DNA of 36,234 nt, taken from IMG/VR virus record IMGVR_UViG_3300044591_002907, positions 1 through 36,234 of that record. One strand, given 5' to 3'. This document shows, piece after piece, positions 2,329 through 36,234 of this stretch (within the stretch, counting starts at the first letter, position 1; every line of letters begins with the position of its first letter). The notes beneath the pieces are model-generated. The model was not told the DNA's origin, ran no database searches, and worked only from the letters and a program-made list of their open reading frames with translations. The position numbers and the translations under genes were made by a program. The DNA comes from a virus.

Positions 2329-2838
2329 ATGGGCGGCCAGCTTATGGATCAATGGACGACGAATTGGTTCCCAGTTTTTGAGCCTGAGAAGTTCCACGAA
2401 GCGGGGGCCTGCTGGGCTCTGGGCGGCGATGCCGAATGGCAGGAAGGCCTGTTTCGGATTTTCTCCCCTCCTGAGCTCGACGGCTTCCGGCCTTTTTATG
2501 AATGGTGGAACGAGCCCGATCCTCTGGAGATCTACTGGGAAGAGAAGGTTCCGGCCGGAGGAGGAAAGCTGACCGAAGCTTTTGTAGATGAAGATTTCCG
2601 GCCGACGGCTTTCGAGTTCTTGGAGTGCTTTGTCCCGGCCGGCACCCCGATGCTCTTAATCCAGGAAAGCTGGCTTCCCCTTAGAGATGGAGGAAGAGCC
2701 GATTACTCCTGCCAGGGGGCCCTCTGGCTGGTCGGAGATAGCGAAGACGAAATCGTCGATTCGGGAGGCTCTCCGGTCGAAGTGATCGAGGAAGCCCAGA
2801 AGCGCTGGCCCGATAAAGAGATTCGTCCGCCCCGCTAG
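2329..2838 (+). CDS. Moron-like acidic, Trp-rich protein of unknown function
   Basis: This 169-residue protein is encoded against the late operon, in the gap between the scaffold gene and the small gene that follows portal. The start at ATG 2329 is chosen because GGAAGGAGGGGG lies just upstream, the strongest ribosome-binding site seen in the window; an earlier in-frame ATG at 2266 lacks one. The protein is acidic and has roughly eleven tryptophans, with aromatic clusters such as 'FYEWWNEPDP' and 'EIYWEEK'. It has no signal peptide or membrane segment, so it is probably cytoplasmic. I recognise no family. A terminator follows directly. A self-contained single gene reversed inside a structural operon is the classic moron arrangement, suggesting expression during lysogeny or early infection (inference). 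Confidence 0.75.
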   Translation: MGGQLMDQWTTNWFPVFEPEKFHEAGACWALGGDAEWQEGLFRIFSPPELDGFRPFYEWWNEPDPLEIYWEEKVPAGGGKLTEAFVDEDFRPTAFEFLECFVPAGTPMLLIQESWLPLRDGGRADYSCQGALWLVGDSEDEIVDSGGSPVEVIEEAQKRWPDKEIRPPR

Positions 2839-2841
2839 AAC

Positions 2842-2874
2842 GAAGAAGCCCGGCTCTTTGGCCGGGCTCTTCGG
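2842..2874 (+). terminator. Intrinsic terminator of the 2329-2838 cassette (possibly bidirectional)
   Basis: GCCCGGC (2848-2854) pairs with GCCGGGC (2861-2867) around a 6-base loop, extended outward by GAAG/CTTC-type pairing, and followed by TCTTCGG. It begins four bases after the stop of the rightward gene. The minus strand gives a similar hairpin, so it may also stop leftward transcription coming from the portal region. Confidence 0.75.
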
Positions 2875-2909
2875 TGAAACCCCTACTTATTGGGGAGGGG
2901 AAGTCTTGT

Positions 2910-3149
2910 CTAGCGGTCTATTAGGAGATCGTTATCTCTGAGCCATTGGATCGCTTCATCTCTAACGGCCGGGGCGCTGGCCTCAATAAAGACCGTCTCT
3001 ATTTGCCGGAGAGCCTGCTTGAGCTGGTAGGGCTCAACCGGGCCGCGCCGAGTTATCTCGCGGAGCGTGTCTCCTACTGCCTGATTAGCCGGAACGCTGG
3101 CCATTCCGAAATCGTCGGAAAGAAAGGTCTTTACTTCGGCGGTCTTCAT
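2910..3149 (-). CDS. Small conserved-looking late-operon protein (79 aa)
   Basis: This is a 79-residue soluble, helix-rich protein between portal (ends 3203) and the reversed cassette at 2329-2838. The start is the ATG at 3147-3149, with AGG about eight bases upstream. It shows no cysteine motif, membrane segment or known signature. The C-terminal half (residues 42-79) reads as two amphipathic helices. Its position in the portal-scaffold interval suggests a head-assembly accessory, but no specific role can be assigned. Confidence 0.65.
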   Translation of the reverse strand: MKTAEVKTFLSDDFGMASVPANQAVGDTLREITRRGPVEPYQLKQALRQIETVFIEASAPAVRDEAIQWLRDNDLLIDR

Positions 3150-3202
3150 GAAATGAACCTAGAACGGGCCAGATCCGCGCACGCTGTTTTCAGCTTGGAG
3201 AT

Positions 3203-4702
3203 CTAGAAGCCGAGATCGGCCAAGATCGAAGCGGTATCGGGGGCCTCGGCGCTGGCCTGGCTGGCGGCCTCGCGAACGACTTCGCCCTGCTCTTCCTTGA
3301 TTCGGTCGATTTCGGCCTGGATGGCGTCCTCTTCCGAATCGCCCATTACCCGGCGTACCGCTTCGTCGATCGAGATCGCTCCGGCCGAGCGCAGATCCCT
3401 AACCGAAGTCGCGATCTCTCGAAGGTCTTCGGGCATGCCATCGGCCAGAGAGACGGTAATCGGGGCCTCTAGGTCGCTCCAAGAGGCGGCCGGCTTGCCC
3501 TGGTAGCTGAGCGAGTCAAGGCGGCGGGCGGCGTCTAGGAGGTGGCGAAGTGAGTCCTCCCAGAGCATGGCCTTACCAGCGTGTTCGACGAGGGTGTGAT
3601 GCATCATTAGGCGCCGAGCGGTTCCCGATTCAGCTCCTCCGGAAACGTTCCGGCCGAGGCTCTGCGGAGCAAAGCCGGCCGCCTGGAGGGTTAGATCGAT
3701 CAAAAAGTCCTGGTACTTGGCAAAGGTCTCGGCCCTTACCTGGGGCTGAATGACCTCGAGCAGCGGCTTGTCATCATCGCCGCCCTCCTCGAGAGTTACC
3801 GGGACGACGCGAGTTCCCTCGGCCAGATTGCCGCCCTCGGTTAGGAGGTCCTGTCGAGCGAAGATGGTCGCGGCCGAAGCCCTGGCGTCGTCCTGGGCCA
3901 TGGTTAGAGCCTCGTTAGTGGCCAGGAGAAGATCCTCTATTCCGGAGAGATCGGAAATCCCTAGAGGGGAATTGGCTCCGAGGTGATTCGGGATATAGAC
4001 CGTATCGAGGCCCTCGAGGCCGGTTGAAAGCTCGGGGGCCAGGCCGGCCGTCTGGGGAATAGAGTCGAGGCTTACCTGCTTTCCGAGTTCGGTCCTGGTT
4101 CCTCGGTAAAGCTCGCTAACGATCCGGCCGGGCTCGTGCCTTTCGAGAAGGCGCCATACCTCGCTCGAGATAGCGCTTCCCTCCTCGGAGAATTCGGAGA
4201 CGAAAGTTACCTGGACCAGCTCGTCATCGTTAGCGAAGACCGGAACGGCTCGGCGCTCGGAGATAAAGCGAATTAGCGCTCCCTTCTGTCCTCGAGGGGT
4301 GCGCGTATCTACATAGGCCAAGCCGTAGATACCGCCGACGCAGGAAGCCCCTTCCGCTGCTCGCTTTAGCTTCGAGTAAAGCCGGTTAAGCTCGACAAGC
4401 TCCTGGAGGCGGGCCTGGTCTTCCTCGCTTTCAACGGTGATTCGGGGAGACTCTCCGAAGAGGAGGTTCGCTGAGGTTCGGCAGATTCTCTGAGCGATCG
4501 GGATCGTTAGATACTGGGGAGTCGATCCGCCGATTCCCTCGGCCCGCTCTCTCCAGTAAGCCTTATCGTCGGAAGCTAGGCGCTCGTAATGCTCGGCGAA
4601 TTCCCAGCGAGCTACGACGCCCGGCGGGGCCCAGCTGTGCCAGGTGTTTCTCCCTAGGAGCTGGTTATTTACCCAGCCGATACTCCGTTCGACGATCGCC
4701 AT
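3203..4702 (-). CDS. Portal protein
   Basis: This 499-residue protein has the length and features of SPP1-type/HK97-group portals, the dodecameric DNA channel at one capsid vertex. The N-terminal third carries 'YLTIPIAQRICRTSANLLFGE' (about residues 63-83), which matches the conserved 'N.....I....A.LLFGE' feature of this family. A glycine/alanine-rich 'LGRNVSGGAESGTARRLM' stretch (about 355-372) resembles the conserved portal crown region where many members read 'G...SG.A.R'. The C-terminal 60 residues are acidic and coiled coil. Gene order terminase, portal, scaffold, capsid supports the call. The start is the ATG at 4700-4702. Downstream is a small protein and then a reversed cassette. Confidence 0.92.
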   Translation of the reverse strand: MAIVERSIGWVNNQLLGRNTWHSWAPPGVVARWEFAEHYERLASDDKAYWRERAEGIGGSTPQYLTIPIAQRICRTSANLLFGESPRITVESEEDQARLQELVELNRLYSKLKRAAEGASCVGGIYGLAYVDTRTPRGQKGALIRFISERRAVPVFANDDELVQVTFVSEFSEEGSAISSEVWRLLERHEPGRIVSELYRGTRTELGKQVSLDSIPQTAGLAPELSTGLEGLDTVYIPNHLGANSPLGISDLSGIEDLLLATNEALTMAQDDARASAATIFARQDLLTEGGNLAEGTRVVPVTLEEGGDDDKPLLEVIQPQVRAETFAKYQDFLIDLTLQAAGFAPQSLGRNVSGGAESGTARRLMMHHTLVEHAGKAMLWEDSLRHLLDAARRLDSLSYQGKPAASWSDLEAPITVSLADGMPEDLREIATSVRDLRSAGAISIDEAVRRVMGDSEEDAIQAEIDRIKEEQGEVVREAASQASAEAPDTASILADLGF

Positions 4703-4883
4703 TAGCTCGAAACTATGGCCGCCCCCTCTGGCCGCGCCGAGCGTAAGCCTGGTTACCGGCCGGGCCCTAATGGCGCGAAGGCGACAAGCCTTGCGAAAGC
4801 TTTCCGGTATGGCCTTTCGGCCGACCTACTTTTCGGGCATCAATCAATCGAAGGGCCAAAGGGCCCGGAAAGAAGGTCGTTTT
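4703..4883. other. Divergent spacer between portal and the 4884 cassette
   Basis: The spacer carries the portal translation start reading left and the 4884 gene reading right, so it should hold at least one promoter. I see several short GC palindromes (for example GGCCTTTCGGCC near 4813-4824) but no clear -35/-10 pair. It does not contain the 20-bp element found at 22468 and 25407. Confidence 0.4.
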
Positions 4884-5351
4884 ATGTTTGCAGAGTCGAA
4901 GAGCGCAGTTCTTAAGGATCTCGGCGATTTCGGAATAGACCAGGCCCAGGGCCTTTTCTTGTCTCCGGACATCTTCGTGGATCCGGCCAGCAAAGAGTCG
5001 GTCGTAGAGCTGGTCACGAATGCTCTTAAGGCCTGGTTCCTGCATTCCGGAGAGCTGGTCGAAACGGGAGCCGTTCCTCTAGATCAGTCGTCGCTGCTTC
5101 GAGTCTCTCTGGATGACGGAAAGGGCGAAGCTTTCACGATCCTCCTTCCCGCTCGCTACGAAGGCTTCGTAGGCAAAACGCCGGAAGACATCGACAATCT
5201 GATCGCCGAGCTCATGGAGCCGACCGAAGAGGTAATCGAAAAGTACTACCAGGAGAGAAGCACCGAAGGGATGGGCTTCTTCTACCGGGACGGCCTTACC
5301 GATGAGGAGGTGGCCGAGCTGTTCGAAGAGATCGACGAAATCGATTTCTAG
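4884..5351 (+). CDS. Moron-like strongly acidic protein of unknown function
   Basis: This 155-residue protein is transcribed rightward between terminase and portal. The start is the ATG at 4884, with AAAGAAGG eight bases upstream; the frame is open further upstream but without a good ribosome-binding site. By eye it has about 35 Asp/Glu against about 11 Lys/Arg, with a very acidic C-terminus (residues 136-155, ending EEIDEIDF). It has no cysteine pair, signal peptide or membrane helix. It could be a DNA mimic or a protein-binding inhibitor (inference only). A strong terminator follows at 5380-5406, making it a free-standing transcription unit inserted at an operon joint. No family is recognised. 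Confidence 0.75.
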   Translation: MFAESKSAVLKDLGDFGIDQAQGLFLSPDIFVDPASKESVVELVTNALKAWFLHSGELVETGAVPLDQSSLLRVSLDDGKGEAFTILLPARYEGFVGKTPEDIDNLIAELMEPTEEVIEKYYQERSTEGMGFFYRDGLTDEEVAELFEEIDEIDF

Positions 5352-5379
5352 AAGCCCAAGAAAGAGGAGGCGAGAATCT

Positions 5380-5406
5380 GCCCGGCTTGGCTCCGGGCTT
5401 TTTCTT
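5380..5406 (+). terminator. Intrinsic terminator of the 4884-5351 cassette
   Basis: GCCCGG (5380-5385) pairs with CCGGGC (5393-5398) around a 7-base loop, followed by TTTTTCTT. It starts 28 bases past the stop codon. It has the canonical rho-independent form on the plus strand, protecting the convergent terminase gene from opposing transcripts. Confidence 0.88.
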
Positions 5407-5455
5407 GGCCTAAAGAGCCTCTAGCGGAAAGCGTGCGGGCCCGAAAGGCTTTCGC

Positions 5456-7102
5456 TTACTCGGCTTCGCGGTGAGCCTTCTCCCATTGGCGGCGAACCAG
5501 ATTTACCACTGCGATTAGCGAGTCGAGCGTATGCTGGTCCTCGCCCTTCTCCAGGCCGCCGTCCTTGCCTACTTTCGCCTCTTTCATCTGATCGATTAGA
5601 AGGGAAGCGTCTTCGGGGCATATCCCTAGAACGCCGTAGCGCTCCGAGGGCGGGAGGTCGGCCTGCTCGGCCGTTCGGCGAACGAGGGTTCTCAAGAATT
5701 CGACGTTCTTCCTCTTGTTCTTGGAGAAAGAGACCGAGTAGGACTGCCTTACGGCCTTTCGGTAGATCCGCTTAAAGCTCTCATGCGCCTGGGCTCCCGA
5801 GCCTCCCGGGTCGTAGAGGACCCGATCTACGGCGGGCCCGAGCTTTCCGGCCTCGGCCATCATTCGATCGGAAGCGCTCTCGGCGTCTAGGTTCGTTAGC
5901 TGATCGGCCCGGGCGATGTAAATCTGGAAGCGGGCGAGATCCCAGCGAAGACACCAGCCGGTCCCGCTAAAGCCCCAATCGATCCCGAGATCCTGGGTCT
6001 CGCCTTTCGGCTCGAGCTTCCCGGCCTTCCTCTCTTTGCTCCATTCCCGGCCGAGAGCTGAGACCGCGAGCATTCCGTCGGGGGAGAAAGCGGCTCCGGA
6101 GAGGTCTCCCTGCATCGCTTCCTCTGGGGTCTCTGGGTACTCGGTCTGGGCGGTGGCTAGCCCGTAGATAGCTACCTGCTTCTCGAACCAGGCCTGGTCT
6201 CTTCCCGGCCGAGCGCTTCTAGGAATAAAGAGGGGGAAGAAGCCGTTCTTTCCTTCCTGGGCCTGATCCCAGATCCGGGCGAAGTGAGCCCCTTTACCGT
6301 GGCGGCCTCCGGAGCTGGATCCAATGATTAGTCGGCCGCCGCCCTCGATTGTCGGCATCGCTGCCTGCGCGACTTTCTCCGGATCGGCCGAGCCCTCGTA
6401 GCGCGCGTACTCGTCTAGAAAGAGCGTCGAGACGGTTTCCGAGCGAGCGGCCTCGTTAGGCGGTAGAGCGACAATCGAAGAGCCGCGGCTGGCGATCTGG
6501 AATTCCTTCGCCGAGTCGAGTCCCGCTCTTCCGCGAGCGTCCTTGGATTCGGCCCCGATGGGGATCGCGATCCAGGGGGCCTGCTCCTGGAGGTAAGCGA
6601 AGATCGCCTTAATGTCCCTAAGGAGCTTCGAGGCGTTGTCCATCCGGTTAGAGATAGCGACGAGCCGGGTATTCCGGCCCTCGGTGGAGTAGGCGGCCAG
6701 CCACGCAAAATAATGCAACACCAAAAGCGTGAATCCATATCGACGTGTCTTGAGGACTACGAGCTTCTCGTACTCATTAAGGGCCGGGCCCAGGAGGTCT
6801 CTCTGGGCTGGCCAAAGCTCAAGAGGGAGGCGCTGCCCGCCGCCGGCCGGAACGTGGCTTGCGTAATTCCGAAGGAAGTAGTCCCAGCCGGAAATCGGAT
6901 TTTCGACCAGAGATTTCTCCTCCTCGACAAAAGCCAGATAAGCGCTACGGTCGTTCCTGAGGAGCTCGAGCTCGGCCGGGCCCATCCGAAGGATCCGCTT
7001 AGGGGGTAGAGATCCGGCCGCGATGTCTGCTTCTACCGCTGAAGCCTGATCGGGCTTATCGGCTCGAACGGGAAAAAACTCCCCCGTACTTTGGAAGCTC
7101 AT
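5456..7102 (-). CDS. terL: Terminase large subunit (ATPase and nuclease)
   Basis: This 548-residue packaging motor pumps genome DNA through the portal and cuts concatemers. The ATPase domain has a phage-type Walker A, LKTRRYGFT (residues 117-125), and a Walker B, LFLDEYA (227-233, D230/E231). The C-terminal RNase H-like nuclease shows GIDWGF (D375), VLYDPGGSG (D431) and HTLDSL (D527), the three expected acidic positions. The start ATG at 7100-7102 overlaps the small-subunit stop as ATGA, and the GAGGAGGA ribosome-binding site lies inside the end of that gene, so the two subunits are translationally coupled. All catalytic residues are present. Confidence 0.95.
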   Translation of the reverse strand: MSFQSTGEFFPVRADKPDQASAVEADIAAGSLPPKRILRMGPAELELLRNDRSAYLAFVEEEKSLVENPISGWDYFLRNYASHVPAGGGQRLPLELWPAQRDLLGPALNEYEKLVVLKTRRYGFTLLVLHYFAWLAAYSTEGRNTRLVAISNRMDNASKLLRDIKAIFAYLQEQAPWIAIPIGAESKDARGRAGLDSAKEFQIASRGSSIVALPPNEAARSETVSTLFLDEYARYEGSADPEKVAQAAMPTIEGGGRLIIGSSSGGRHGKGAHFARIWDQAQEGKNGFFPLFIPRSARPGRDQAWFEKQVAIYGLATAQTEYPETPEEAMQGDLSGAAFSPDGMLAVSALGREWSKERKAGKLEPKGETQDLGIDWGFSGTGWCLRWDLARFQIYIARADQLTNLDAESASDRMMAEAGKLGPAVDRVLYDPGGSGAQAHESFKRIYRKAVRQSYSVSFSKNKRKNVEFLRTLVRRTAEQADLPPSERYGVLGICPEDASLLIDQMKEAKVGKDGGLEKGEDQHTLDSLIAVVNLVRRQWEKAHREAE

Positions 7103-7758: not shown

Positions 7759-9060
7759 CTAGGCTTTCTCCGCCTTGTCGCCGGTGAAGTCTTCCCAGCG
7801 CTGGACGATCACGTCGCAGTAGCCGGGGTCGAGCTCGACGAGATACCCGCGGCGGCCGGTTCGCTGGGCGGCGATAAGCGTACTTCCAGAGCCTCCGAAA
7901 ATGTCGAGGACGATATCCCCATATTTCGACGAATTGTGGATTAGCTTTTCCAAGAGGCCCACCGGCTTTGTCGTCGGGTGAAGGCCGCTCTTACTTGGCC
8001 GGTCGTGCTCTATCGCCGTTGTTTGGATCGCTTCCTTGATCTGGAGAAGAGTCGCTAGAAGCTCGTCCTTCGAGAGGGCGGTCGGGTCGGCCAGCTTCTC
8101 GATAAGTGTCTTCTTGTCGAATCCCCCGTACCAGGTATGGGCTGCTCCTTCTTTCCAGCCATAGAAAATCGGTTCGTGCTGGGATTGGTAGTCCTGCTGC
8201 CCGAGAACCATCGTCTGTTTGACCCAGATCAAGGTCTGCCGAACGGACATATTCGATCCCTGGAGGGCCAGTTCGAATTCGACTCGCCCAGCATCTGGGA
8301 GAAAGCAATAGAAGGGAGCTCCGGCTGGAATAGCCGAGGCCGCGGCAGAGAGGGCGTCCTGCAGGAATAGCCGAAGCCCTTCTCCGGAAAGATTGTCGTT
8401 AGCGATGTCTCGATGGTCTGTATCGCTGACCGTGTTCGCCTTCTTTGAGTAATTGACCCCGTAGGGCGGGTCGGTTAGGAGGAGGTTCGCTGAGCTTCCG
8501 TCCATGAGCTGATCGATTACCGCCTGGTCGGTACTGTCTCCACAGATCAAGCGATGGGGGCCAAGAAGCCAGACGTCCCCGGGCTCGGTTCTGGTGTTAT
8601 CCGGATCCGGGGTTTCTGGGACCTCGTCCGGATCGGTGTTCCCGGGAACTACTGCGTCTTCGCCGAGCTCTTGTAGAAGGTGAGTAAGAGCGGTCTCGTC
8701 GTAGCCGGTTCCTTCGAGATCGTCTAGCTCGCTAAGCATGTTCCAGAGAGCCTGGTCGTCGTACTCGGCTAGATCGTTAGCCCGGTTATCGATAAGCACT
8801 ATTCGGGCGGCCTGGTCTTCGTCTGCATCTACCCAGGTCGCGGCGATCTCTTCCCAGCCAAGATCTCGAGCGGCCTTGTAAGTGTGGTTCCCGGCGAGAA
8901 TCTCGCTCGTTCTTTTATTGGCTACTACTGGCCGGTATTGGCCATTTACTCGAAGGCTCTCCTTAATGGCCTCGAGGTTTCCTTGCCGCGGATTGCCTTC
9001 TCGCTCTCGGAGGGAATCAATCGGAACGAGGAGCTTTTCTAGGTCTGCCGGAACTCTCAC
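7759..9060 (-). CDS. ParB-N domain fused to a DNA adenine/cytosine-N4 methyltransferase
   Basis: This is a 433-residue two-domain protein. Residues about 5-130 match the ParB-like N-terminal (ParB/Srx-fold) domain, with 'NPRQGNLEAIKESLRVNGQYRPVV' then 'ILAGNHTYKAARDLGW'. Residues about 158-430 are an exocyclic amino methyltransferase of beta-type order: catalytic DPPY (197-200) comes before the SAM-binding DIFGGSGST (386-394), with HPTTKP at 361-366. It would methylate phage DNA, giving protection from host restriction or marking packaging sites (inference). It is followed ten bases later by terS. The start is a GTG at 9058-9060; there is no ATG in frame between the upstream stop and there. 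The target sequence cannot be predicted. Confidence 0.93.
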   Translation of the reverse strand: MRVPADLEKLLVPIDSLREREGNPRQGNLEAIKESLRVNGQYRPVVANKRTSEILAGNHTYKAARDLGWEEIAATWVDADEDQAARIVLIDNRANDLAEYDDQALWNMLSELDDLEGTGYDETALTHLLQELGEDAVVPGNTDPDEVPETPDPDNTRTEPGDVWLLGPHRLICGDSTDQAVIDQLMDGSSANLLLTDPPYGVNYSKKANTVSDTDHRDIANDNLSGEGLRLFLQDALSAAASAIPAGAPFYCFLPDAGRVEFELALQGSNMSVRQTLIWVKQTMVLGQQDYQSQHEPIFYGWKEGAAHTWYGGFDKKTLIEKLADPTALSKDELLATLLQIKEAIQTTAIEHDRPSKSGLHPTTKPVGLLEKLIHNSSKYGDIVLDIFGGSGSTLIAAQRTGRRGYLVELDPGYCDVIVQRWEDFTGDKAEKA

Positions 9061-15952: not shown

Positions 15953-17863
15953 CTAGATCGCGCCGCTGATCATCAACGCCCCGACGACTGTCGCCGAGCT
16001 TGATTTACCTCGGAGCCGGTAAGGCTCGGAAGCTGCGGTAGCTGAACCGGCATCGTTCGAAGCGGTAACGACTGCTCGAATCCAATAGCCGCGGAGATTG
16101 TCGGTAATGGTGAGCGAGCTTCCGTCGGCCGAAGCGATGCTCTGCCAGTTCGTCGAGCCGGTAAGGCTCTTCTCCCAAGCCCAAGAAAAAGAAGGAGAAG
16201 GAAAGCCGTCCCACTCTCCAGCGCTTCCCTCGAAGCGATCCTCGAGGAACTCAATCGTCGGAGCGCTGATAAGAGAAGGATCTTCGGATACATAGGCGGT
16301 AGTTGCGCTTACGGCCTCGGTCGCCCCCTGGGTGTTGATCCCAAAGACCGAAACGCGAAGGTATTTCCCGGCGTCGGCCTCCGTCGCCGTGTAGGTCTCG
16401 CTAATTGCTCCGGAGATTGCCGTCCAGCCGGTCGAGCCGTCGAGGGAGCGCTGCCATTCGATCTCGTAAAGAAGCCCAGGGAAGCCGGTCCAAGAGCCAA
16501 TCGAAGCCGAGAGTTCGGTTCCGATTTCAAGAACGCCGGAGTAAGAGACCGAGGGCTGGGCCGTGTTGATCGGCTCCCAGACGATCTGGCCCAAAGTCGC
16601 CGAGAAAATCGTCTCCGAGCCGGCCGAGTTTGTCCCGGTTACCGAAACGCGAAGGTAGCGGCCGGCGTCCTCTCCGGTTGCCGTGTAGGAGCTAGAGGTC
16701 TCTCCGGAGATATTGCTCCAAGAGGTGCCCGAGCTGGTCGAGCGCTGCCATTGGTAGGAAATCGAAGGGGACTCGTAGCCGGTCCAAGTCCCCGGGGTGC
16801 AGGAGAGCAGGTCGCCAACGGCCGGGGAGTCGCCCTCTCCTTCGAAGCTGATCGCCGGGCCCTCGGTATTGGCCGGGGCCCAGAGGGTCGGGCCAACTGC
16901 GCTCGAGGAAGAAGTCGCGGGCCCGAGGATGTTCGTCGCGGTAACGGTTGAGCGAAGGTATTTCCCGGCGTCGGTGCTTACCGGCGAGTAGCTGCCGCTC
17001 GTTGCTCCAGAAATAGCGCTCCAGCCCGAAGTCCCGGTATCTGAGCTCTCCCAAGCGTAGGCGTAAGAGCTCGGGGCGGTTCCGCTCCAGGTTCCGGTCG
17101 AGGAGCTAAGGGTCTGCCCGACGGTCGCGGTTCCGGTAATTGTCGGGGCGGAGGTGTTCTCGAGAAGAAAGGCGCTTCCGACGTCATAGTGGGCCTGGAT
17201 TCGTGCGGGCGAAAGAGCCGCTCCGTAGATCGCCGGTTCGTCAATCTGTAGCGAATAGACCCGATTCGAGTTCCCGATCGAAGCGGTAGTGGCGGCCCAG
17301 GCCAAGATATCTGAAGCGCTGGAAGTGCTCGTTCCTACTAGCTCTCCATTTACATACTGTCGAATTTGGACGCTTGAGCCGAGGTCTTCAATTACCCCGA
17401 CGTAGTGGTAAGTCTGGCCGAGCGCGATTGCCGTAGAAGAGGGAACGGTAGTAGAGCTAGAAGAGTTGTTTAGATTGACGCGAAAGCCTAGATAGGCGAT
17501 GTTGTTCGTGACCGTTACGCCGAGCCCCTGGTTTCCGTTCATGGTTAGGATCGAGTGAGAGGAGCTGGTAGGAAGTGCTCCTCCGAAGCGAATCCACGCC
17601 TCGAAAGTAAGACCGCTTCGGCCGGTCGTTAGGTCTCCGACGGTCGCCTGGCCGATGGTGTTGATCGTGCTTGCTGGAAGTAGCGCTGCCTTGCCGGCCG
17701 GAGTGCTGTTAAGGAGAGAGCTTTGGTTTCGCTGAACCTGCGAAGTAGAAAAAGTCCCGTTCCGGCCGTTGCCTGAAGAATCGGCGAAAGCGGTTCCGCT
17801 TGTTTCTTCGAGCTTCCAGTAGATAAGCGGAGCATCGGCTAGGACTTGCGCGTTATAGGCCAT
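15953..17863 (-). CDS. LamG/concanavalin-like adhesin with four Ig-like repeats
   Basis: This 636-residue protein begins 'MAYNAQVLADAPLIYWKLEETSGTAFADSSG', the hallmark of phage LamG (concanavalin A-like) domains. That domain runs to about residue 230, with 'TFEAWIRFGG', 'HYVGVIED' and 'IDEPAIYGAALSPARIQAHY'. Four Ig-like repeats of about 90 residues follow (about 236-325, 330-425, 430-520, 530-615), each with a 'G.WSG.....Y.W..S..G..W..I.GAT...Y....AGKYLRV.VTATN..G' pattern. It is a probable tail adhesin or fibre binding surface glycans. It lies directly downstream of the glycerophosphotransferase gene, suggesting paired action on host surface polymers (inference). The start ATG is at 17861-17863. 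Confidence 0.88.
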   Translation of the reverse strand: MAYNAQVLADAPLIYWKLEETSGTAFADSSGNGRNGTFSTSQVQRNQSSLLNSTPAGKAALLPASTINTIGQATVGDLTTGRSGLTFEAWIRFGGALPTSSSHSILTMNGNQGLGVTVTNNIAYLGFRVNLNNSSSSTTVPSSTAIALGQTYHYVGVIEDLGSSVQIRQYVNGELVGTSTSSASDILAWAATTASIGNSNRVYSLQIDEPAIYGAALSPARIQAHYDVGSAFLLENTSAPTITGTATVGQTLSSSTGTWSGTAPSSYAYAWESSDTGTSGWSAISGATSGSYSPVSTDAGKYLRSTVTATNILGPATSSSSAVGPTLWAPANTEGPAISFEGEGDSPAVGDLLSCTPGTWTGYESPSISYQWQRSTSSGTSWSNISGETSSSYTATGEDAGRYLRVSVTGTNSAGSETIFSATLGQIVWEPINTAQPSVSYSGVLEIGTELSASIGSWTGFPGLLYEIEWQRSLDGSTGWTAISGAISETYTATEADAGKYLRVSVFGINTQGATEAVSATTAYVSEDPSLISAPTIEFLEDRFEGSAGEWDGFPSPSFSWAWEKSLTGSTNWQSIASADGSSLTITDNLRGYWIRAVVTASNDAGSATAASEPYRLRGKSSSATVVGALMISGAI

Positions 17864-17910: not shown

Positions 17911-18903
17911 CTAGCCCCAGGTCGCCTGGATCTCTTCGATCGCCTCGGCCGCCCTCTTGGCCGCTTGCCCGTCGGTCTTTATGTAGATACTCCGGAGAAG
18001 CTCCCGGCGCCGCTCGGCGATTTCGATCGGATCTTGCAGGGCCCGGCGAATCGTCTTCGAGAGCTCTTTCGGATCATCTACCTGGAGGCCGATATCAGCG
18101 TGACTCCAGAACCTCATCCCGTGCTCGACCTCCCGCCGATACCAGGGCGCGTTGAGCAGGGCAACCGGCCGGTCGAGGCTGGCCCATTCAAAGATCGTCG
18201 AGCTGTTGTCGCAGATATAGAGCTCGGCTTCTCCGATCAGCTGCTCGAAATCGGCGATAAATGGGATTCCGGCCTTTCTGTAGATCGCCTGGGCCTGGCG
18301 AGCTAAGCGGGGATGGGAATGCCCGACGAGATCAAAATCGCGAGCGAGGTTCTTTAGCTCTCCTCGGTAAAAGCGAAGAGCGCTTCGGGTCTCCGGGCAG
18401 ACCTTCGAATCCCAATGAAAAGAAATCGCTACTCGCCCCTTCTTGCCCGGCTTCGGGCTGGCGTGGTGTGGATCAAGCTTCGGGACGCCGACCGGGTAGG
18501 CGCGGATAGTCGGGTGGCGTGCTTCGTGCCTCTCCGCCTGGGCCCGGCCGGGAACGAGCGCGGCGACGCATCCGGCGCGATCGATTGCCCCGATATAAGA
18601 GCCCGATTCGACCCCCTGGTAGCTCTGCCCGGCTCCGTGCTCGGAGATGATTACTCGGCGGCCGTTGTCTCTGGCCAGCTTCATGTCGCGGAAGGCGGCG
18701 ACAACGGTTAGCCTCGTCCCGGCCATTTTTTCCACCGAGAAGGTCTTCTCGATTCCAAGCTCGCGGGCCCGAGGACGAAGAGCCTCGAGAGTGTAAAAGC
18801 GGCCGCGAAGCTCTTCGGGAAGAGCTTTCCAGGTCGGGGCTAAGTGGTCGAGGAAGTGCGGCTCCCGGGCCAAGAAATCGACGGCTCTACTTTTCCTCGC
18901 CAT
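17911..18903 (-). CDS. CDP-glycerol glycerophosphotransferase-like glycosyltransferase (TagF/TagB type)
   Basis: This 330-residue GT-B-like enzyme resembles the teichoic-acid polymerase family, which transfers glycerol-phosphate from CDP-glycerol. Visible motifs: 'IISEHGAGQSY' (about 85-95, with the conserved HG), 'ISFHWDS' (160-166), 'LVGHSHPR' (192-199) and 'YICDNSSTIFEWASLDRPV' (229-247), which corresponds to the family 'DYSS..FD...L..P' nucleotide-binding stretch. There is no signal peptide or membrane helix; family members act at the cytoplasmic face. In a phage it could change host wall teichoic acid (superinfection exclusion) or decorate virion proteins (inference). It starts at 18903, beside the pyrimidine-rich spacer and just upstream of the LamG adhesin. 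Confidence 0.82.
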   Translation of the reverse strand: MARKSRAVDFLAREPHFLDHLAPTWKALPEELRGRFYTLEALRPRARELGIEKTFSVEKMAGTRLTVVAAFRDMKLARDNGRRVIISEHGAGQSYQGVESGSYIGAIDRAGCVAALVPGRAQAERHEARHPTIRAYPVGVPKLDPHHASPKPGKKGRVAISFHWDSKVCPETRSALRFYRGELKNLARDFDLVGHSHPRLARQAQAIYRKAGIPFIADFEQLIGEAELYICDNSSTIFEWASLDRPVALLNAPWYRREVEHGMRFWSHADIGLQVDDPKELSKTIRRALQDPIEIAERRRELLRSIYIKTDGQAAKRAAEAIEEIQATWG

Positions 18904-19544: not shown

Positions 19545-20522
19545 ATGACTGTTAGAAGAACCGTCGGGGAAAACCTAGTTAGCGATAGCGCGAAGGCCTG
19601 GGTCGAGAACGCTCTTAATCGCCGAGCCGATCGCCTAAAGGAGGCCGGCTCGAAGAAGGGTCTCCCTCCGGCTCTGTTTAGTGGAGAGCTACGAATCCGG
19701 GCAGAGCGGCTGGTAACGGCGCTCGAGCTCGTTCCAAAGCGTTCGGGCCTATGGACTCCCAGAGGCCAGCTTCTGCAGGTCGCCTTCTATAACGCTCGGG
19801 CCTCTTCTCGGTTAGCTCTCGAAGAAAGAAGAAACGCTTATCGAGAAAGAGCTTTTAGCGAGCTCTCCGGCCTGATTACTCAAGCTCGAGACGCCGAGCA
19901 TTTTCGCCTGCTTGAAGAGATTGGAGACCCCTCTTCGGATGGGCCGCTCGAGTCGGTTCGAGCTCAATTGGCCGAGAAGCTTTCCGAGCTACACGAGGAG
20001 CGGCTCGGCGATCAAGAAAGAACCGCTTCCGACGCCGTCTATTACTTTCTCTGCTCGATTGGCCATCAGTGGGCTATAGAGAGCGAGCGGAGTCCCGATC
20101 TCGACGCCGATCTAGAAAAGCTTCGAGCGATTGGCCTTGCAGCCGACCTCGGGATCTCCGAGGCGGTGCCGGAGGTCTTTCTCTCCATGCTCTTGATTAT
20201 CGAAGAGGCGATCGGGCCCTGGATCGATTCCTATTCCGATTCGGATTGGACCGAGCTTATTTACGAGCGGATCGAAGCTACATTCTTCGACGATCGAGAG
20301 CTCCTCGGATTGCTCGAAGGAACGCTGGTTCTTGAAGATTCCCGCCTGGTGACTACGCCGCTCGCTCGATCCGAGGGAGACTGCCTTCGCCTGCTCTTGG
20401 CCGAGCGCTGGGCTGGCCGAAGAGCTGGAGGCGTCTTTCCCTGGGGAGAGCGCGCTGTTTGCCCGATTCCCGATCCGCTTCGGCCGGGTTCGGTTAAGGA
20501 GCTTCCTCCTCTAGATCGATAG
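19545..20522 (+). CDS. Hypothetical protein (325 aa), possible early/replication gene
   Basis: This large rightward protein starts at the ATG 19545 (MTVRRTVGENL), ten bases after the preceding stop; an ATG at 19476 overlaps the previous gene and is less likely. It is soluble and helix-rich, with an N-terminal basic segment (residues 1-60), a long acidic helical middle (about 90-240) and a C-terminal 'LLLAERWAGRRAGGVFPWG'. I see no Walker, helicase, primase or nuclease motif. It is convergent with the integrase gene, overlapping its end by 29 bases. As one of only two large unassigned proteins outside the structural genes, it is a candidate replication initiator or regulator (inference). Confidence 0.65.
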   Translation: MTVRRTVGENLVSDSAKAWVENALNRRADRLKEAGSKKGLPPALFSGELRIRAERLVTALELVPKRSGLWTPRGQLLQVAFYNARASSRLALEERRNAYRERAFSELSGLITQARDAEHFRLLEEIGDPSSDGPLESVRAQLAEKLSELHEERLGDQERTASDAVYYFLCSIGHQWAIESERSPDLDADLEKLRAIGLAADLGISEAVPEVFLSMLLIIEEAIGPWIDSYSDSDWTELIYERIEATFFDDRELLGLLEGTLVLEDSRLVTTPLARSEGDCLRLLLAERWAGRRAGGVFPWGERAVCPIPDPLRPGSVKELPPLDR

Positions 20523-21762
20523 GGCTATAGAGGCTCGAGAGGTCTCTTTCCTGGCTCTCGAATCGTTTAAAGATCGAGGCGTAGATTCGCATCGTTGTCG
20601 CCGGGTTGCTGTGGCCCATTAGGTAGGCGATTTGGGTAATCGGGACGCCCTGGGCGATTAGTTCGCTAGCGAAGGTATGGCGGAGCGAGTGCGGGGTATA
20701 GCTGAGCGGGACCCCGGCCTCCTGCAAAGCTGGCCGCCAGATGTCTCGGCGGAAATTGCCTTCGCCCCGGATCCGCCCCCGGCCGTTTGGAAAAAGAAGA
20801 GCGGGCTCCCCGGGCTTGTGAAGCTTCTTCGCCCTGGCTACTTGCCGCTCTAGGCGGTTCATAAGCTGCGGAGAAACCTTAAGGACGCGAAAGCCGGAGG
20901 CGGTTTTCGGGTACTGGCTAATTACTGTCTTTCCCTTTTTGGTCGAGAGGGTTCGCTGGATGCTTATCGAGCGATCGCGGCGATTCAGATCCGAGCAATC
21001 AAGGGCCAGGAGCTCGCCAAGGCGAAGCCCGAGCGAGGCCATCGTTAGAAGAAGGGTCTCTCGCTCTTCGGTTACTGAGTGCTTAAGGATGGCTCGAACG
21101 TCTTCCTGCTCCATTGGGACGATCTGCTTCTTGGTCCGGGGGTTAGAGCTGAGTTCAACGAGCGAGACGGGATTCTCGGCTACCAGCCCCTCCCGCTTGG
21201 CGTAGGTAAAGATCTGGCGAAGCACTGAGAGCTGCTGCTCTACAGAGCGAATGCCGAGCGGCTCGGTTCTCGAAGAGGCCACTTTCCCTTCTACCGGAAC
21301 GGCTCCGGGCTCGCCGGGAGCGAGCGTTAGCTTCTTCGCCGCGTACCTCTCTATATCCCCGGCGCTGATCTGGTGAAGGTAGAGGCCGCGAAAAGCGGGG
21401 AGGAGGTGGCAATCGAGAGCTACCTCGAGGAGCTCTTGGGCCCTGGTCGAGAGGCCCTTTAAGGCGATCTGGCTTCGCTGCCATTCCCGAGCTACAACCT
21501 CGAAGGGGTGCCCGAGAAATTGCGATCCCTGCCCCCGGCCGATTGCTACGAGCCTTTCTAAGAGGGCGTGCTCGGCCACCTCCCGAGTTACGCCGGCCGA
21601 TTCCGGGCCGATCGTTTCCCAGACTCTTCGGCCCCCTGGTACCGGCCGGTAGCCGATGGACCAGGAGCCGCTCCGGCAGCGGATCGTGCCCTGCCCGTAC
21701 GAGCGGCGCTTCTTACCCATTGCTACCTCGAGAGCGAGGTCGGTCTTTGTTGCTTCGGCCAT
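20494..21762 (-). CDS. int: Tyrosine integrase
   Basis: This 422-residue site-specific recombinase integrates the phage at attP. It has an N-terminal arm-binding region (residues 16-60: 'SYGQGTIRCRSGSWSIGYRPVPGGRR'), a SAM-like core-binding domain (about 85-195) and a catalytic domain with the full set: R247 (LGLRLGE), K286 in the beta-hairpin (YPKTASGFR), H358/R361 (TPHSLRHTF), H384 (LMGHSNP) and nucleophile Y394 (MRIYA). An alternative start at codon 15 (MGKKRRSYG, 21718-21720) follows GAGGT and may be the true one. It lies 7 bases after the excisionase gene and about 500 bases from the half-tRNA core. Confidence 0.96.
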   Translation of the reverse strand: MAEATKTDLALEVAMGKKRRSYGQGTIRCRSGSWSIGYRPVPGGRRVWETIGPESAGVTREVAEHALLERLVAIGRGQGSQFLGHPFEVVAREWQRSQIALKGLSTRAQELLEVALDCHLLPAFRGLYLHQISAGDIERYAAKKLTLAPGEPGAVPVEGKVASSRTEPLGIRSVEQQLSVLRQIFTYAKREGLVAENPVSLVELSSNPRTKKQIVPMEQEDVRAILKHSVTEERETLLLTMASLGLRLGELLALDCSDLNRRDRSISIQRTLSTKKGKTVISQYPKTASGFRVLKVSPQLMNRLERQVARAKKLHKPGEPALLFPNGRGRIRGEGNFRRDIWRPALQEAGVPLSYTPHSLRHTFASELIAQGVPITQIAYLMGHSNPATTMRIYASIFKRFESQERDLSSLYSPIDLEEEAP

Positions 21763-21768
21763 TGCTGC

Positions 21769-22044
21769 TTACCAGTCGAGGGCGGCGCCCTTGGCCCGGC
21801 TTCTCTGGCCGGCGAGTATCTCCGAGGGGGTGAGGTCGCGGGGAGCGATCTCGCCTTCGCTGACGAAGGCCAAGATCGAATCGGTAAGGATTCGAAGTCC
21901 GCCCTTCTTGCCGGGGCTGAGCTTGATCGCCTTTAGGCTGCCGGCCTTTACCAGGGCGTAGATCTTCGACCTCGAGCAGTCGAGCATCGCGGCGGCTTTC
22001 TCTGGAGTGACTACGAGGGCTTCGGTTTTCGTGGTGGTGTCCAT
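21769..22044 (-). CDS. xis: Excisionase-like MerR/HTH_17 protein
   Basis: This 91-residue protein has a winged-HTH of the HTH_17/excisionase family: 'LVVTPEKAAAMLDCSRSKIYALVKAGSLKAIKLSPGKKGGLRILTDSILAFV' (residues 10-61). It precedes the integrase by seven bases in the same operon, so it probably directs excision or regulates int. The start ATG (22042-22044) lies at the foot of a CCCGA/TCGGG hairpin. Confidence 0.9.
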   Translation of the reverse strand: MDTTTKTEALVVTPEKAAAMLDCSRSKIYALVKAGSLKAIKLSPGKKGGLRILTDSILAFVSEGEIAPRDLTPSEILAGQRSRAKGAALDW

Positions 22045-22067: not shown

Positions 22068-22095
22068 CGGGGATACCGGAAAAGCTCGAGAAAAT

Positions 22096-22149
22096 CCTTT
22101 GTCACCGTTTATGTCTCCAAATCAGGGCTAATCTGTGCGATCTGGAGAC
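22096..22149. repeat. Duplicated block, left copy (candidate integrase arm site)
   Basis: CCTTTGTCACC (22096-22106) followed 33 bases later by TGTGCGATCTGGAGAC (22134-22149). The block at 22335-22389 repeats the same two elements in the same orientation with nearly the same spacing. TGTCTCCA and TGGAGACA within this copy also form an inverted repeat. It flanks the attP core, as integrase or excisionase arm sites would. Confidence 0.65.
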
Positions 22150-22246
22150 AAGATAGCGGGCCTGGAGGGCCTGGTAAAGGCTGTTTTTCCCTTTTTTAAG
22201 GGAAGTAGCTTCTTCGGCAGGTCTGGAGGAGGTAAGGGTCGCTCAA

Positions 22247-22283
22247 GTGTGAAGCGAGTGCTCTCCCGCTGAGCTACGCGCCC
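22247..22283 (-). other. attP core: 5' half of tRNA-Val(CAC)
   Basis: On the minus strand this reads as positions 1-38 of a tRNA: acceptor GGGCGCG, TA, the D-arm GCTC-AGCGGGA-GAGC, A, anticodon stem CTCGC and the 7-base loop TTCACAC with anticodon CAC (Val). The next bases (TTGAGCG) do not complete the anticodon stem, and no T-arm follows, so it is not a full tRNA. Such partial tRNA identity beside a tyrosine integrase marks the attachment core shared with the host tRNA gene; here it would restore the 5' half, with crossover at or before the anticodon loop. Confidence 0.85.
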
Positions 22284-22334
22284 TTCTTAGCTCTATAACT
22301 GAAGATCCTCGGTTACAGAGCCGGTCTCTTGCCT

Positions 22335-22389
22335 CCTTTTGTCACCATCTTGGCTCCGTTTCGGTGCGAAGTGTGCGATTAGAGGAGAC
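22335..22389. repeat. Duplicated block, right copy (candidate integrase arm site)
   Basis: CCTTTTGTCACC (22335-22346) followed 31 bases after its GTCACC by TGTGCGAT (22372-22379) and AGGAGAC. It is the partner of 22096-22149 on the other side of the half-tRNA core. A further GGTGCGAA sits just before TGTGCGAT, giving a tandem GTGCGA motif. Confidence 0.65.
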
Positions 22390-22467
22390 GTAAGGACGGA
22401 AAGTCTAGGCCAAGAAGGGGCTCGAAAGAACGGCCCCTTCTGAGCTGGCGGAAATGACTTAAGAAAA

Positions 22468-22487
22468 ATATCCCGTGCGCTAGTTCG
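22468..22487 (+). promoter_or_regulatory. Shared 20-bp cassette element, copy 1
   Basis: ATATCCCGTGCGCTAGTTCG differs at one base from 25407-25426. It lies 20 bases before the ATG of the HNH gene, the right place for a core promoter or an operator overlapping it. CTAGTT could serve as a -10-like box, but no standard -35 is obvious. Confidence 0.75.
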
Positions 22488-22507
22488 CCTCGCCTAATGG
22501 TCGGGGC

Positions 22508-23074
22508 ATGGATACCCAAGCAGTAAGGATGCGAGTCGGAGGCCACCGGGCCGGTTCGAGGAGCTGCTTCGTTACGGTGAGCCGGGAGGATCGAGATCGC
22601 CTTAAAGAGCATCGCTGGTCGATCCATCCGACCGGTTACGCGATTCGCCGAGACTGGATCGGCGAAAAGCGGGTTACCCTCTACCTTCATCGCGAGGTTA
22701 TGGGGCTGAAGTACGGCGACCCCGAAGTCGTCGATCATCTTTCGGGCGAGAAGCTCGATTGCCGAAGGGAGAACCTTCGAATCCTGGACGAGCCGGGCTG
22801 GAATGGCCAGAACGTTCGTCGGAGCGGCGGCTCCTCTCGCTTTCGCGGGGTAGCTGCTAGCGGGAAGAAGTGGCGAGCCCGCGTCTCCCATAAGGGAGAG
22901 AGCTTCGAGCTCGGCAGTTTCGATCGAGAGATCGACGCTGCAATCGCCGCCGAGCTGAAGAGGCAGGAAATCCTGCCCTTCGCCGAGCCCGATCCGGCCC
23001 TGGTCAAGGTCATGGGCGAGAAGGTTCGCCTTCTCCTTCCCCGTCGCGAGTCGATCCAGCCGATCGCGGCCTAG
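22508..23074 (+). CDS. HNH endonuclease with AP2-like domain
   Basis: This 188-residue protein has an HNH_3-type nuclease: 'YLHREVMGLKYGDPEVVDHLSGEKLDCRRENLRI' with H61, D76/H77 and N89 as metal and catalytic positions. An AP2-like DNA-binding domain follows (about 108-150: 'SSRFRGVAASGKKWRARV...LGSFD...AA'). This HNH-AP2 architecture is typical of phage homing-type endonucleases. It is a free-standing rightward unit with the 20-bp element upstream and its own terminator. Start chosen at ATG 22508 (GGTCGGGGC just upstream); MRVGGH seven codons later is possible. It could be a selfish element or nick DNA for recombination or packaging. Confidence 0.92.
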   Translation: MDTQAVRMRVGGHRAGSRSCFVTVSREDRDRLKEHRWSIHPTGYAIRRDWIGEKRVTLYLHREVMGLKYGDPEVVDHLSGEKLDCRRENLRILDEPGWNGQNVRRSGGSSRFRGVAASGKKWRARVSHKGESFELGSFDREIDAAIAAELKRQEILPFAEPDPALVKVMGEKVRLLLPRRESIQPIAA

Positions 23075-35998: not shown

Positions 35999-36234
35999 TA
36001 GAAATCCTCGAAGCGAAGTTCTTTGAATTCCTGCCAGGTCAAGCGGCGGGCCGAGGTAATCCGGCGAGTAGGGGTAAAGCCGGCCTGCCGAAGGTATTCC
36101 CGGGCGGCGTCTGAGTACTTCGGCCGACGGCCCTTCCTGGAAAAGCCTTCCCCGGTCGCTTCGCGGTATTCCCGAACGGCCAAGAATTCCTCGGCGTTCG
36201 GTCCCAGTAGGCGGCGGTAGCGAATCTGCTCGGC
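35998..36234 (-). CDS. Head-tail connector protein, C-terminal part (continues at 343)
   Basis: This is the C-terminal 78 residues of the connector gene whose ATG is at 341-343 across the circular junction. It ends 'TSARRLTWQEFKELRFEDF' with TAA overlapping the next start. Within the linear window a TTG at 36181-36183 could look like a start, but the frame is open to the right edge and joins 128-343 in phase. It is basic in 'GEGFSRKGRRPKYSDAARE', a feature of portal-docking connectors. Confidence 0.75.
   Translation of the reverse strand, partial: AEQIRYRRLLGPNAEEFLAVREYREATGEGFSRKGRRPKYSDAAREYLRQAGFTPTRRITSARRLTWQEFKELRFEDF
36108..36234. repeat. Terminal direct repeat, right copy
   Basis: Exact copy of 1-127. 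One copy should be removed before analysing the genome as a circle. Confidence 0.95.

Follow-up and report, generated by a model that had tools for sequence, protein, structure and literature searches.

A phage attP-like core corresponding to the 5' half of tRNA-Val(CAC) and ending at the anticodon loop

Introduction

Most tRNA-targeting phages were expected by the original prediction to carry the 3' half of the tRNA, and the literature bears this out: the Islander collection holds 3760 islands with a 3' tDNA fragment versus 159 with a 5' fragment (PMC4383910), and tyrosine-integrase mycobacteriophages typically share the 3' tRNA half (PMC10865867). As the attP of these mycobacteriophage and actinophage systems holds the 3' half, the host promoter stays in place, whereas an element that carries the 5' half must supply the tRNA promoter. 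Archaeal pTN3-type integrases use the 5' half, a mode seldom seen in bacteria according to a review of archaeal recombinases (PMC8371274), and the rebuilt tRNA is consequently expressed from element DNA. An overlap placed in the anticodon loop is canonical (PMC8371274); 2083 Islander islands have an anticodon-centred crossover (PMC4383910), and the anticodon-loop site is that of Williams 2002, as cited in PMC4383910 and PMC8371274.

The locus described here belongs to the virus record IMGVR_UViG_3300044591_002907, which was analysed over its whole length of 36,234 nt (the window). Like the 5'-fragment islands of Islander, the phage combines a tyrosine integrase, a predicted anticodon-loop crossover, an element-carried 5' half and a tRNA that would be restored downstream of the element; unlike them, it is a free phage genome with attP anatomy, and its candidate host group is little studied. 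With the pTN3-type elements it has the use of the 5' half of a tRNA gene in common; in pTN3, however, int is split into int(N) and int(C) on integration, whereas in the phage attP lies upstream of xis and int, both of which would stay whole. As in the mycobacteriophage and actinophage systems, the attP has a 30-45 bp core overlapping a tRNA together with repeats that are putatively of the arm type. The phage thus adds to a known minority class of 5'-half integrating elements, whose mode of integration is uncommon but already known.

Results

The window carries a 127-bp direct terminal repeat (1-127 = 36108-36234), which points to a complete phage genome (a circular or circularly permuted assembly), and portal, terminase, capsid and tape-measure genes were identified by Pfam and PHROG matches. 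No complete tRNA was called by ARAGORN in the whole genome. Away from the integration locus, a single protein (7759-9060, minus strand) combines a ParB-N-like domain with an N4/N6 DNA methylase domain, and a CDP-glycerol glycerophosphotransferase-like gene (17911-18903, minus strand; PF04464, 3.9e-8) adjoins a gene (15953-17863) whose product has laminin-G and Ig-like domains. The integration locus comprises the following features, where G405 denotes a sister phage.

20494-21762, minus strand: tyrosine integrase, 422 aa (PF00589, 5e-22; PHROG 1, 3e-52; alignment with 6emy)
21769-22044, minus strand: excisionase-like HTH_17 protein, 91 aa (Pfam HTH_17, 3.9e-10; PHROG excisionase, 9e-5; 66% identical to the G405 protein)
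22100-22118, minus strand: int-side pair of putative arm-type integrase sites, GGAGACA (22118-22112) and GGTGACA (22106-22100), at the same offsets (+165/+177) in G405
22240-22246, minus strand: phage-side core arm TTGAGCG, the imperfect inverted partner of the ACTCGC stem across the loop, identical in G405
22247-22253, minus strand: putative 7-bp overlap (strand-exchange region) TTCACAC, which is the anticodon loop, placed where the identity with the hosts ends
22247-22283, minus strand: attP core, the exact 5' half of tRNA-Val(CAC) from acceptor strand to anticodon loop (37-mer match and ARAGORN)
22340-22357, minus strand: upstream pair of putative arm-type integrase sites, GGAGCCA (22357-22351) and GGTGACA (22346-22340), at the same offsets (-74/-63) in G405
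22508-23074, plus strand: HNH endonuclease-like gene (HNH_3, 7.7e-6), divergent from the tRNA half

In an alignment with 6emy, a solved structure named 'Int protein', the catalytic positions R, HxxR, H and Y of the integrase are recognisable; a short-peptide scan of viral contigs for relatives of this integrase gave distant matches alone (24-26%). The core lies outside int, just upstream of the excisionase-like and integrase genes and on the same strand. Its label as attP draws support from these two neighbouring genes, a sister phage with the same site and the flanking arm-type repeats.

The core sequence, GGGCGCGTAGCTCAGCGGGAGAGCACTCGCTTCACAC (37 nt, minus strand 22283-22247), was searched against a collection of one genome per species, and the exact 37-mer was present in 36 stretches or genomes. 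At 35 of these 36 places ARAGORN called a tRNA-Val(CAC), the remaining one being cut by the locus edge. Judged by its length and position, an exact match over 37 bases is far more than chance would give and goes further than generic D-arm identity, as it includes the acceptor strand and the anticodon arm. Identity between phage and hosts spans the first tRNA base to the last anticodon-loop base. Upstream of the first tRNA base no sequence was common to the phage and the 36 host places, and downstream of the 37-mer the bases GCGAG (3' side of the anticodon stem) followed in 36/36 hosts versus TTGAGCGACCC in the phage, so the identity does not reach past the final base of the 7-nt anticodon loop. 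Two points of the original prediction are therefore confirmed, namely that the core corresponds to a tRNA-Val(CAC) 5' half running as far as the anticodon loop and that tRNA homology stops exactly after TTCACAC, and the placement of the putative overlap at TTCACAC fits the canonical position.

A second phage, IMGVR_UViG_3300044591_002206 (G405), was reached via the portal and terminase genes, its portal being 89% identical. Its integrase and excisionase are 75% and 66% identical to those of the phage, most aligned pieces show about 64-77% DNA identity, and the DNA similarity extends through the HNH endonuclease-like gene. In G405 the half-tRNA differs at two bases and is likewise followed by TTGAGCG: over half-tRNA and TTGAGCG together 42 of 44 bases are kept versus 58% in the flanks (p about 2e-8), and no other part of the region is as well conserved as the half-tRNA. 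The two changed bases co-occur in a real tRNA-Val half, that of the Thermoleophilia genome G204. Furthermore, both phages have paired 7-base repeats on either side of the core; measured from the tRNA start, they lie 74 and 63 bases away on the upstream side and 165 and 177 bases away on the downstream side. The repeat sequence differs between the phages and agrees within each of them, the G405 pairs reading GGTGTCA/TGTGTCA on both sides, and the left-right similarity was matched by 1/500 shuffles in each phage. We read these paired repeats as putative arm-type integrase sites. They lie within longer similar blocks of ~55 bp (22333-22389 and 22095-22149, minus strand), in which ATCGCACA also occurs, on either side roughly 22 bp ahead of the arm pair; it may be where a second protein binds.

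These data bear on the origin of the half-tRNA. Aberrant excision can carry off tRNA fragments, and the half might for this reason be host DNA derived from imprecise excision or transduction and not a working attP core. That origin is largely refuted already and very improbable in our view: the same half, the same break and TTGAGCG recur in G405 despite the DNA identity of about 64-77% in most aligned pieces, the half is better conserved than the rest of its region, and paired repeats as well as int and xis flank it. An expression of the 5' half with TTGAGCG(A)CCC as a shortened, T-arm-less tRNA-like RNA has an equally slight chance of being correct. The next bases of G405, CGCCCA, could pair with GGGCG, and CGACCC of the phage partly can, but in the phage the pairing is broken by one base, ARAGORN calls nothing in either attP, and the RNA fold of the attP half was no better than that of shuffles (z -0.30); TTGAGCG is moreover explained as an inverted core-type integrase site. 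A tRNA-dependent lysogeny of the Hatfull type (PMC10865867), in which the host tRNA is disrupted on integration and replaced by one that the phage encodes, would likewise match a site inside a tRNA gene and is least credible of all because the core is long and there is no phage tRNA: such phages share a core of about 10 bp and encode the whole tRNA (PMC10865867), whereas the 37-bp core here suffices to rebuild the tRNA and the phage encodes none.

Very probably, 22095-22389 serves as attP for a temperate phage, whose integrase would recombine the identical anticodon loops of attP and of a host tRNA-Val(CAC) gene, so that phage 5' half and host 3' half rebuild the tRNA. In this attP, TTCACAC would form the 7-bp overlap between the imperfect inverted core sites ACTCGC and CGCTCAA (other strand), and it is this loop that the integrase would exchange with that of the host gene. 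Since the phage holds the 5' half, the rebuilt tRNA would consist of the phage 5' half and the host 3' half; it would be located at the int-distal prophage end, downstream of phage DNA (22284-22507) that takes the place of the host upstream region. The host tRNA promoter and its own 5' half would stay at the opposite prophage end, directed into xis and int. Along the chromosome, the host promoter and host 5' half would come first, followed by TTGAGCG, xis and int, then by the remainder of the phage up to its HNH side, and finally by the phage 5' half joined to the host 3' half and by host DNA; the predicted attL mark is CGCTTCACACTTGAGCG. Joined in silico to Thermoleophilia or alphaproteobacterial 3' halves, the phage half yielded a tRNA-Val(CAC) that was called by ARAGORN; integration is thus predicted to rebuild an intact, hybrid tRNA.

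Because the HNH gene runs the opposite way, the promoter of the rebuilt tRNA should lie in 22284-22507. Of the predicted 5'-half swap with a new upstream promoter, the geometry stands and is seen in natural islands (see below), whereas the promoter itself is only presumed: a consensus scan upstream of the half-tRNA recognised no sigma-70 consensus promoter, and TTATAG at -15 is a weak candidate found by eye. A terminator-like site was looked for on the tRNA strand between the half and xis and none was found, so transcription from the displaced native promoter might continue into xis and int.

In a search of 399 Thermoleophilia genomes for the 5' half (up to 3 mismatches), 209 genomes matched and 11 of them gave two or more matches. 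Nine of the 11 contain a displaced 5' half (G014, G126, G233, G259, G271, G287, G376, G379 and G393), and 5'-half integration at the tRNA-Val(CAC) gene consequently does occur. The other two, G122 and G364, have two whole tRNAs each. Eight of the nine genomes have an intact tRNA on the same contig and strand as the displaced half, at a distance of 0.7 to 61 kb downstream; in G233 displaced half and intact copy are on different contigs. The islands break at the loop end or a few bases past it, where GC or GCG is often kept (GCGAG in G014 and G379), and the displaced half of G014 is a decayed copy. An integrase of a single family starts about 110-150 nt after the fragment and is co-directional with it in G271, G376, G287 and G233. 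A different integrase is found in G126 at the opposite end, upstream of the restored tRNA; in the other four islands (G379, G259, G393 and G014) none could be identified. Host-like -10 boxes (GGCTATGCT, GCGTAGAAT) are retained with the displaced fragments of G271, G376 and G287, while the restored tRNAs have in common a different upstream sequence (GGATTTGCAGG...); in G233 the element-type upstream sequence sits on the displaced half itself.

The Thermoleophilia islands (G271, G376, G287, G233, G126 and others) thus resemble the phage in the tRNA 5' half used and in the breakpoint region, and four of them also in the co-directional integrase just downstream of the fragment. In contrast, their integrases are only 23-29% identical to the phage integrase over part of the protein, which makes the islands analogues and not close relatives of the phage. 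Together with the phage's own, the integrases linked to this tRNA-Val(CAC) half-site fall into at least three lineages.

Two or more copies of the 3' half were counted by hand in about 58 genomes, some of the extra copies being whole tRNAs; compared with the nine inspected 5' cases this uninspected count suggests that 3'-type use of tRNA-Val(CAC) is the commoner one. On contig C41 of G082 (2604-6847, minus strand) extra tRNA-Val(CAC) 3' halves are located at 2604, 3209 and 5168, downstream of the copy at 6787-6847, which suggests repeated 3'-type integration at the same tRNA. The viral contigs L044, L131, L133, L134 and L135 also match the 5' half; with the whole tRNA present, they are not further half-tRNA examples. 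In L131 (3695-3769) and L135 (5871-5945) an entire tRNA-Val(CAC) is followed, after about 100 bp, by integrase-like sequence on the other strand, and both contigs are possibly prophage edges of the ordinary 3' type.

With respect to the host, the 36 places with the 37-mer belong to Thermoleophilia-type Actinobacteria (one labelled Acidobacteriota) and to Alphaproteobacteria. As the exact core is common to Actinobacteria and Alphaproteobacteria, it does not by itself name the host. No prophage with this integrase was found in incomplete samples of 399 Thermoleophilia, 396 evenly drawn phylum-wide and 50 single-family genomes, and the best Thermoleophilia integrase match (33%, G334) has a tRNA-His nearby and not a tRNA-Val. 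The expectation that the core would give a direct handle on host identity is weakened on both counts, and the search for prophages next to tRNA-Val(CAC) returned none with this integrase and, at the same site, islands with other integrases. With no such prophage found, integration by this phage is an inference, and so are the exact crossover, the expression of the rebuilt tRNA from phage DNA and the host. Relatives of the portal are mainly actinophages, tape-measure matches come from phages of mixed hosts, with many Microbacterium and Gordonia phages among them, and terminase matches have mixed hosts as well. On the whole we lean towards an actinobacterial host.

Discussion

A more far-reaching reading, which we regard as rather unlikely, takes 5'-half integration to be a reciprocal promoter exchange, in which the tRNA would receive a phage promoter and, in exchange, the native tRNA promoter that is displaced would drive xis and int. 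The lysogen's integrase expression would then track the activity of the host tRNA-Val promoter, and several unrelated integrase lineages of Thermoleophilia may have converged on such an exchange at a single tRNA gene.

With the temperate-phage attP proposed here, the small class of 5'-half elements gains a phage with a complete attP anatomy, and the tRNA-Val(CAC) of Thermoleophilia is seen to be an integration site that is used from the 5' side by several integrase lineages. How such elements secure the expression of an essential tRNA, and whether the displaced native promoter is exploited, thereby become directly testable questions.
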